A stretch of 64,000 nt of DNA, from contig NZ_ACJN02000001.1 in assembly GCF_000174435.1 (NCBI RefSeq), positions 1,291,658 to 1,355,657 on the forward strand, written 5' to 3'. Under the pieces are notes generated by a model. The model was not told the DNA's origin and searched no databases. It worked only from the letters and a program-made list of their open reading frames with translations. Position 1 is the first letter of the stretch, and the number at the start of each line of letters is the position of its first letter. The stretch comes from Desulfonatronospira thiodismutans ASO3-1 (GTDB lineage Bacteria; Desulfobacterota; Desulfovibrionia; Desulfovibrionales; Desulfonatronovibrionaceae). Positions 32,660-35,299 of the stretch are shown piece after piece. A program made the translations under genes and the position numbers.

Positions 32660-33265
32660 TTAGATATTCTGCCTGAAGCGCATGGACTGCTTCAGGGTCT
32701 CCTTGTCCATGAACTTTAGATCCGACCCCAGGGGTATCCCCTGGGCCAGACGGGTGACCCGTACATGTGGATATTCCTTTTCCACCATGTTTTTGATATA
32801 AGATCCGGTGGTTTCAGCTTCAAGAGTGGTACCCAGGGCCAGGATAATTTCACTGGTCTGTCCACTTTGCAGATTCTCACGCAGCTTGTCCAGCTCTAAG
32901 GAATCGGGACGCACCCCGTCCAGGGGAGACAAAAGCCCCCCCAGCACCAGGTAGCGCCCCTTGAAAAACCCCGATTCTTCCATGACCAGCAGGCTGTCCC
33001 ATTCGGATACCAGGCAGAGCTTGTCCTGCTCCCGCATGGCATCGGAGCATATGGAGCACGGATCTGTATCCGCCAGGGCCGCACACTGGGAACAGATACA
33101 TAATTGATCCCGGAGATCAGTTATGCTCTGCCCCAGCCCCCTGGTCTTGTCTTCCGGCCATTTAAGAAGGGTCATGGCCATGCGCAGCGCACTCTTGGGA
33201 CCTATTCCCGGCAGGTCTGAAAGACGGTCCACAAGAAGCTGCATTGATCTGGGCAACTTTTGCAC
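32660..33265 (-). CDS. recR: Recombination mediator protein RecR
   Basis: The 201-residue product matches RecR in length and layout: an HhH motif (LSDLPGIGPKSALRMAMTLL), a four-Cys zinc site (CSQCAALADTDPCSIC) and a Toprim domain (CLVSEWDSLLVMEE, YLVLGGLLSPLDGV). RecR acts with RecO/RecF to load RecA at gaps. It starts at GTG, with AAGGA 7 nt upstream, and is the third gene of the classic dnaX-ybaB-recR cluster. Confidence 0.95.
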   Translation of the reverse strand: MQKLPRSMQLLVDRLSDLPGIGPKSALRMAMTLLKWPEDKTRGLGQSITDLRDQLCICSQCAALADTDPCSICSDAMREQDKLCLVSEWDSLLVMEESGFFKGRYLVLGGLLSPLDGVRPDSLELDKLRENLQSGQTSEIILALGTTLEAETTGSYIKNMVEKEYPHVRVTRLAQGIPLGSDLKFMDKETLKQSMRFRQNI

Positions 33266-33296: not shown

Positions 33297-33599
33297 TTAG
33301 AACAGTCCCGGAATCTTCATGCCCCCGGTAAGCTGGGACATTTCACCCTGGACCATCTCCCGGGCTCTTTTCAGGGCGTCGTTGGTTGCGGCCAGGATAA
33401 GATCCTGCAGCATTTCCACGTCCTCGGGATCCACCACGTCTTTTTCAATCCGTACTTCCAGGACTTCCTGTCCCCCATTCACCTTTACCGTGACCATGCC
33501 TCCGCCGGCGGATGCCTCCACCTCCCGGGCATTCAGCTCTTCCTGCATCTTGGCCATTTTCTTCTGCATCATCTGGGCCTGTTTTACCAAATCCTGCAT
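33297..33599 (-). CDS. ybaB: YbaB/EbfC family nucleoid-associated protein
   Basis: A 100-residue basic/acidic protein. Its N-terminal helix is [22 protein letters not shown], followed by [21 protein letters not shown] and a C-terminal helix, as in YbaB/EbfC dimers that bind DNA without strong sequence preference. It sits between dnaX (14 nt upstream) and recR (31 nt downstream), the conserved order in bacteria. AAGGAG precedes the start by about 10 nt. Confidence 0.93.
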
Positions 33600-33613: not shown

Positions 33614-35299
33614 TTATGAGTTGGGTTTGTCGTTGTTTCTGCTTATATCCATTATCCGGGCATCAAATGCATCCATTAATCTTTGCACCCCCGGATGATT
33701 GCGCGCCTTTTCCTCTGGTGAAGCATCAAAAATCTCTGGGGCTGCTCCAGCTTGAAAAACCACCTGCATTTCTCTGCCGAAAAAACTGCCAGTCAGGGTG
33801 GACAGTTTTTTTTCGCGGCCGTTTCTTAGCAGAGCGGACCGAACATACTCTTCTTCCGGTTTAAGAGTCAGCTGATCTTTGTCAATACTGGCGCTGCATT
33901 GCTTGAGCATCCTGGCCAGAGTCATATCATCGCGGCAATGCTCCCGGCAGTAATCCAGAAAACCGTCCCAGTCTTTTTCTGTCCCGGGCGGCTTTTCTTC
34001 TTGAACCTCAGCTTTATCCTCCCCCCTGTCCTGGAATTCCTGGAAATTTTCAGTTACTACCTCAGGTTCCCCGGGAGAGCTGGATGTTTTATATTCATTA
34101 TTGAGGCTTTTTTTTTCCCCGCCTGCAGGATATTTTTTTTCTGCCGTGTTCTGCCTGGTCTCTCCCCGGGGCTGCGGCTCCGGGGCATACCCGGAAACAG
34201 GAATAAGCTCTGGCAGATAAGCCAGATTGTAAAGCATGAGTTCCAGGCTGATTCCCGGTTCGTAACTGCCCAGTATGCTTTTGCGGCTTTCCAGGACCAT
34301 CTGCCACCCGGCATGAATGGTTGAGGCCGCAAACATGCCGGCCATTTCCCGCCACTTTTCAACCTCTTCCGCCGGCAGGTCCAGGACTTTTCCAGCCTCC
34401 TGACCACCCTGGGAAAGAAGAAACATATTACGCCAGCACTGGGCCATTTCCTGCAGGAAAAAACCAAGATCCAGACCCTGTTCCAGGAGATAATTGACCA
34501 TCTCGTGCAGCCGGACCAGGTCCTGATCCAGGATATGCTGCATCAGGCGCAGAAAAAGCTCCTGATCCGCAAGTCCCAGGACCCGGCGGACATCCGCGGT
34601 CTTCAGCCCCTCGTCTCCCAGGGCCAGCACCTGGCCCAGCATGGACATGCTGTCCCGGACACTGCCGGATCCGCGGCGCGTCAAAAGATGCACTGCTTCC
34701 TTTTCGTAGGATACCCCTTCGGTGTCCAGGACAAAGCAAAGATGCGCAAAAAGCTCGCCGTGGGTCAGGCGTTTGAAAACATAATGCTGGCACCTGCTGA
34801 TCACTGTGGCCGGAAACTTTTCCGGAGCAGTAGTGGCCATGATGAATACACAGTGGGCTGGGGGTTCTTCCAGGGTCTTGAGCAGGGCGTTGAACGCCGA
34901 TGTGGACAGCATATGGGCCTCGTCAATAATGACCACCTTGTACCTGCCGCTCATGGGAGAATAGGCCACATCCTCGCGCAGCTTGCGTACGTTGTCCACG
35001 CCGGTATGCGAAGCAGCATCTATTTCCCATACATCCGGTGAAGCACCCCTGGTTATCTGCTCGCAGCTTGAACACTGGTTGCAGGGCTCAGGGGCAGGCC
35101 CATTGTAGCAGTTTATGGCTTTGGACAAAATCCGGGCCAGGGTGGTCTTGCCCACCCCCCTGGTGCCGCTGAACAGATAGGCGTGGGAAGGCCTGTCCTG
35201 CCCCGCCGCCCGGGACAGAATGCTCTTGATGAAATCCTGTCCCGCCACCTGGGCGAAATTCTGCGGTCTATATCTGGCTGTAAGTCCTGCCTTGGCCAT
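33614..35299 (-). CDS. dnaX: DNA polymerase III subunits gamma/tau
   Basis: A 561-residue clamp-loader ATPase. Domain I shows [14 protein letters not shown], Walker [15 protein letters not shown], a Cys4 zinc site ([18 protein letters not shown]), Walker [11 protein letters not shown] and the SRC sensor-1 region. Domains II-III follow to about residue 375. A charged, low-complexity linker then leads to a tau-specific tail. Two poly-A runs lie exactly at the domain III/tau boundary: 8 A at 34133-34140 and 9 A at 34108-34116. A -1 shift on either run ends at the same TAA (34098-34100), giving a roughly 400-residue gamma-like form. First gene of dnaX-ybaB-recR. Confidence 0.95.
34098..34140 (-). 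promoter_or_regulatory. dnaX: Candidate frameshift/slippage site making the gamma form of DnaX
   Basis: On the coding strand the order is GAAAAAAAATAT, 16 nt, then GAAAAAAAAAGCC, then CTCAATAA. In frame 0 this reads [15 protein letters not shown]. After a -1 shift on the second run it reads KKKPQ and stops. Thermus dnaX uses transcript slippage on a run of nine A, and E. coli dnaX a -1 frameshift on A6G, so both precedents fit. Confidence 0.65.

Follow-up and report, generated by a model that had tools for sequence, protein, structure and literature searches.

The dnaX gene of Desulfonatronospira thiodismutans ASO3-1 carries a run of nine adenines that is probably a transcriptional slippage site of the type known from Thermus, at which a gamma-like short form of DnaX would be made beside full-length tau. 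The gene lies on the minus strand of the window, that is, the whole analysed stretch of 64,000 nucleotides, and has the following features.

33614-35299, minus strand: dnaX, DNA polymerase III gamma/tau, 561 aa (TIGR02397 dnaX_nterm, E 5e-121)
34202-35299, minus strand: clamp-loader core (AAA+ ATPase, lid, domain III), aa 1-366 (PF13177, PF22608, PF12169)
34133-34140, minus strand: A8 run, GAA AAA AAA TAT, graded as probably minor or inert
34108-34116, minus strand: A9 run, GAA AAA AAA AGC, the proposed transcriptional slippage site
34098-34100, minus strand: TAA, -1 frame stop common to A8 and A9, product of about 399 aa
34057-34059, minus strand: +1 frame stop common to A8 and A9, product of about 413 aa
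33806-33813, minus strand: third A8 run, inside the tail domain, taken as tolerated and ordinary
33617-33982, minus strand: tail segment, aa 440-561, with the terminal motif HPxVxxxxxxFxAR and no Pfam match, absent from the proposed short product

The A8 run is located upstream of the A9 run at a distance of 16 nt (34117-34132). Both are situated between the core and the tail, just behind domain III of the clamp loader, which ends at aa 366 with the end of the PF12169 match; thus the position behind the conserved clamp-loader domains given in the first-pass annotation agrees with the coordinates. Both runs begin at the second codon position, and therefore a -1 shift leads from either of them to the same shifted frame, as does a single additional A in the mRNA. 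This frame is closed by TAA 13 codons past the start of A8 and 5 codons past the start of A9, so that the product of about 400 residues beside the 561-residue tau, also claimed there, is borne out. The +1 frame is closed 27 codons past the start of A8 and 19 codons past the start of A9. Tau itself is a single open frame of 561 aa, and no frame transition is needed to produce it. As the tail has no Pfam match, the statement that the short product lacks the tau domains is purely alignment-based. Relatives of this DnaX at 80-81% identity come from Desulfonatronospira metagenome bins. No promoter-like site was seen in a consensus scan of the minus strand between 33200 and 36000. On its strand, dnaX is followed downstream by two genes which from their translations we take to be ybaB/ebfC-like (33297-33599) and recR-like (32660-33265).

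In the proposed mechanism, RNA polymerase would realign on the nine A/T pairs and produce dnaX mRNAs with extra or missing adenines. Transcripts with the run unchanged, or altered by a multiple of three, would encode the 561-aa tau, and those with other run lengths would enter one of the shifted frames and reach a stop after 5 or 19 codons. The resulting gamma-like DnaX of about 399-413 aa would keep the clamp-loader core and lose the tail, and the upstream A8 would contribute little. RNA polymerase is suggested as the agent by a length threshold at nine. According to PMC1088944, A/T runs of nine are visibly selected against in a large share of genomes, and in Thermus half of the DnaX product is made shorter by slippage at A9. 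The E. coli RNA polymerase barely slips on the A runs tested, and no slippage is detectable below eight adenines (PMC6260861). These data, together with the threshold at nine, point to A9 as the working site and to A8 as a minor one. Runs, frames and stops are established from the sequence; the occurrence of slippage, its efficiency and the use of the short product are things that we infer.

The alternative that survives best, which we consider possible if on the unlikely side, is a neutral run: A9, like A8, would have arisen by chance from the EKK residues of a linker that evolves fast and in which frameshift errors are cheap, and any short DnaX would be an unselected by-product. The dnaX gene of the window, taken by itself, is consistent with it. 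When the synonymous codons of this gene are shuffled, runs of nine or more (A9+) arise in 6.7% of the shuffles, and thus little can be concluded from one gene; at least three A8+ runs arise in 0.25%. The distances to the stops are ordinary as well. Both shifted frames close soon behind A9, though not above the gene's own background: of the two alternative-frame stops, the one reached later ranks at the 44th percentile among positions of the tail, which is counted against slippage. Unusually near stops were therefore rejected as evidence for a site in this gene.

Long A runs were counted in a sample of the genome consisting of 20 stretches and the window (464 kb, 309 ORFs of at least 120 aa, 117,819 codons), and the expectation was obtained by permutation of synonymous codons within genes. 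The sense strands contain 976 A5+, 373 A6+, 108 A7+ and 33 A8+ runs, and one A9+ run. The A8+ runs (in 29 of the 309 ORFs) compare with 22.8 expected, and the single A9+ run, which is that of dnaX, with 5.2 expected (sd 1.7). A8 is tolerated in this genome and A9 is avoided, with avoidance setting in at nine; the A8 of dnaX is probably ordinary. The whole 4.1-Mb genome, both strands counted, contains 55 distinct A9+ runs, and a sense A9+ run occurs in 18 ORFs of at least 120 codons, where starts were assigned mechanically and some of the runs may precede the true start codon. Because 17 of these ORFs, including ftsK and shikimate dehydrogenase, are other than dnaX, A9 is neither lethal nor unique, which is counted against slippage and agrees with a neutral run. 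In a glycosyltransferase gene (L132:838-2091), an A9 at codon 221 falls into the hinge between two Pfam domains, one ending at aa 209 and the other starting at aa 237.

The first-pass annotation had further suggested that two runs sharing one stop provide redundancy. This suggestion is not upheld, as A8 is ordinary in the genome and nothing about the shared stop calls for explanation. "Two runs, one stop" was rejected as a designed feature, since two in-phase runs at a distance of 16 nt are bound to lead to one downstream stop whenever the few intervening codons are open. Of the 13 other family members, only two have a close pair of A8+ runs (A8 and A9 in L018, A10 and A10 in L022); L004 has A7 and A9. 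The third A8 of dnaX was missing from that annotation.

The slippage reading is supported by the recurrence of A9+ in the dnaX genes of relatives. The search of the order covered 199 genomes, from which 105 dnaX genes were used, picked by listing order and family rather than at random: 14 from the own family, and 9, 19, 8, 54 and 1 from families f2, f3, f4, f5 and f6, respectively. Four of the 18 genomes of the own family are without a usable dnaX tail: no dnaX was found in G006 and G011, and G010 and G017 have fragments (L026, L025). Kept in the counts were L007, which is cut by a contig end, L040, L079 and L102, where no stop was reached, and the partial L199 and L200. A9+ occurs in 15 of the 105 genes versus 3.59 expected (P 9e-12, with rows treated as independent, which phylogenetically they are not). 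By family, the counts are 7/14 in the own family versus 1.83 expected, 5/9 in f2 versus 1.12, 2/54 in f5 versus 0.56, and 1/1 in f6 versus 0.06; there are none among the 27 genes of f3 and f4. The excess extends beyond the own genus (12/99 versus 3.3 expected, P 2e-8) and beyond the own family (8/91 versus 1.7, P 4e-7), the rows again not being phylogenetically independent. All 16 A9+ runs are behind domain III, and none occurs in the first 366 codons (38,430 core codons, a nominal figure as incomplete rows were kept).

Conservation of A9 in the genus and the family is above expectation, but patchy and moving. The check for conservation in close relatives proposed in the first-pass annotation came out divided: among the six dnaX genes of the genus, A9 is present in three (L001, L004, L006) and A8 or more in four, with A8 in L003, and neither is found in L005 and L007. 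The A9+ runs of relatives occupy several different alignment positions, and on the dnaX tree (62 rows; L199, L200 and L040 dropped) their presence changes 11 times, at least 10 when judged by well-supported branches. Thus simple inheritance of a single run does not account for them. The context GAA AAA AAA A is common to nine of the 15 A9+ genes, at differing alignment positions. The patchy presence and the 11 changes on the tree are what a neutral run would give; under slippage, the patchiness would mean that gamma is dispensable or otherwise made in relatives without A9.

Two more observations are counted against slippage. The shifted frames of L077 are open for 95 and 49 codons, and the runs in f2 are located about 25-40 codons before the end of dnaX. 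The short product in f2 would therefore be nearly full length rather than gamma-sized, losing little beyond the terminal motif HPxVxxxxxxFxAR. Counted in favour of slippage are the GC-rich dnaX genes L066, L068, L193 and L195, in which the stops of both shifted frames are unusually near (2nd-9th percentile). Runs of A9-A10 are present in dnaX genes of 59-64% GC, with stops nearby, which argues against a neutral run.

Control genes were available from 15 of the 18 family genomes each for IF-2 and FtsY, and from 17 for ftsK. IF-2, which is more lysine-rich, has A9+ in one of 15 genomes versus 8.9 expected (P 1e-11 for a count this low). A neutral run does not fit well with an excess in dnaX beyond the own genus while the lysine-richer IF-2 avoids such runs. 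FtsY has A9+ in one of 15 genomes versus 0.48 expected; there is no avoidance here, and this is counted against slippage. ftsK has A9+ in 8 of 17 genomes versus 2.42 expected, the own-genus excess being in part an ascertainment effect, since ftsK was chosen as one of the 18 ORFs with A9; outside the genus the count is 3/10 versus about 2 expected (summed over rows). Thus dnaX is not the sole gene keeping A9, and the result cuts both ways: A9 in the ftsK linker too is consistent with a neutral run. On balance, the earlier claim of a slippage-type site with a Thermus precedent is supported, as A9+ recurs in dnaX of relatives far above the synonymous-codon expectation, is rare in other genes of the genome and is avoided in IF-2.

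Ribosomal -1 frameshifting on A_AAA_AAA, which would make gamma as in E. coli and give a role to both runs, is quite improbable: there is one such heptamer in each of A8 and A9, in the same phase, and one gene of the order (L081) has an A_AAA_AAG signal resembling that of E. coli, with a strong stem-loop and an SD-like stretch, but neither a stem-loop (z +0.1 to +1.6 behind A9, +0.1 to +1.8 for both runs) nor an SD-like pattern upstream of A8 and A9 was found in the dnaX of the window. The E. coli ribosomal signal is thus missing. Moreover, A_AAA_AAA is reported to induce shifts far less readily than A_AAA_AAG in E. coli (PMC5009743), the same heptamer within A8 after a Glu codon (EKK) is present in other, ordinary genes, and avoidance in the genome starts at A9, which points to RNA polymerase. 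According to PMC5009743, the presence of two tRNA-Lys may favour slippage. This argument was rejected as not discriminating: tRNA-Lys(CUU) is encoded in the own genome, G018, G022 and G180, and also in G168, where the site is of the ribosomal type.

Transcriptional slippage at A9 would place this gene close to dnaX of Thermus thermophilus, where likewise a sense A9 stands behind the clamp-loader domains, tau is encoded by one ORF, and stops are present in both shifted frames (PMC1088944, PMC5009743). Slippage and a 1:1 tau:gamma ratio were measured in T. thermophilus, whereas slippage in the gene described here is a proposal. In addition, the run in this gene does not keep its position among relatives, and a further A8 lies upstream of it. 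The E. coli dnaX also has a gamma product ending soon after the shift, in the linker behind domain III. However, it uses a programmed -1 ribosomal frameshift, and its combination of A_AAA_AAG, Shine-Dalgarno match and stem-loop has no counterpart at the site considered here, which contains only A_AAA_AAA; the mechanism of the E. coli precedent invoked earlier is not matched. A third group is formed by two-ORF dnaX genes, with gamma in frame zero and tau made by frame transition, for which poly-A runs of 7-10 were proposed as slippage sites; Antonov et al. (2013, PMC3711429) put forward poly-A slippage in twelve such genes. In contrast, tau is a single open frame in the window, and the only two-ORF dnaX detected is that of G168 (L081), a distant relative. 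The ways of making gamma reviewed in PMC5009743 comprise transcriptional slippage and ribosomal frameshift, with proteolysis as the way taken in Caulobacter. A literature search, mostly of papers outside subscription, found no report of a dnaX frameshift in Desulfovibrio or Desulfonatronospira. It is likely that the dnaX of the window adds a slippage case of an already known kind.

If the slippage reading is true, slippage-made gamma is not confined to Thermus, and its site was repeatedly gained, moved and lost within one bacterial order, where it coexists with at least one relative bearing an E. coli-like ribosomal signal. The order would then be a natural series for the questions of whether gamma matters and how modes of recoding replace each other.

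The A9 of ftsK (L303, at G000:C2:818167-820308; L304-L307, L313, L314) is located between the 4TM domain (aa 10-173 in the Pfam layout) and the motor (from aa 240). It is kept in five of seven genomes of the genus, the fifth run being at nearly the same place as the other four. Four of the five runs continue with GCT GA, so that a -1 stop arises 3 codons past the start of the run. Slippage at this A9 would yield a membrane-only FtsK consisting of the 4TM domain and ending before the motor. No report of ftsK slippage was found among the papers searched. One could speculate, although we think it unlikely, that linker A9 runs are a shared device of the Desulfonatronospira family for truncated, single-module chromosome proteins, namely gamma-like DnaX and membrane-only FtsK.

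Several dnaX genes of the order are unusual in other respects. In genus g3 of the family (L022, L023, L024), DnaX has just 429-437 codons and the tail domain is gone. The terminal motif is kept (HPLV or QPLI ... EF), and runs of A8-A10 are found shortly upstream of it. In G057, whose genome is 43% complete, a dnaX-like stretch (G057:C1:76247-77324) contains several in-frame stops; candidate explanations are a pseudogene, an assembly fault or a mis-binned contig.

The arrangement of dnaX in L081 (about 1150-1900) is reversed: frame zero is closed at codon 388 (GCA AAA AAG CCC TAA), and the -1 frame entered from A_AAA_AAG runs for about 195 codons to a tau-like C-terminus, so that a frameshift is needed for tau. 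A strong stem-loop is located behind the site (z -5.8; separate estimates -1.9 and -2.4). This reversed dnaX represents one species, G168 being the sole genome of its genus in the sample.

Finally, L005 (G004) has an in-phase A_AAA_AAG of the E. coli type at codon 396 (GAA AAA AAG GGT), with no hairpin at this site (z +1.4), versus GAA AAA AAA GGT in the linker of its near relative L003. To judge by these two sequences, a single substitution could turn the L003-type site into the L005-type one or back.
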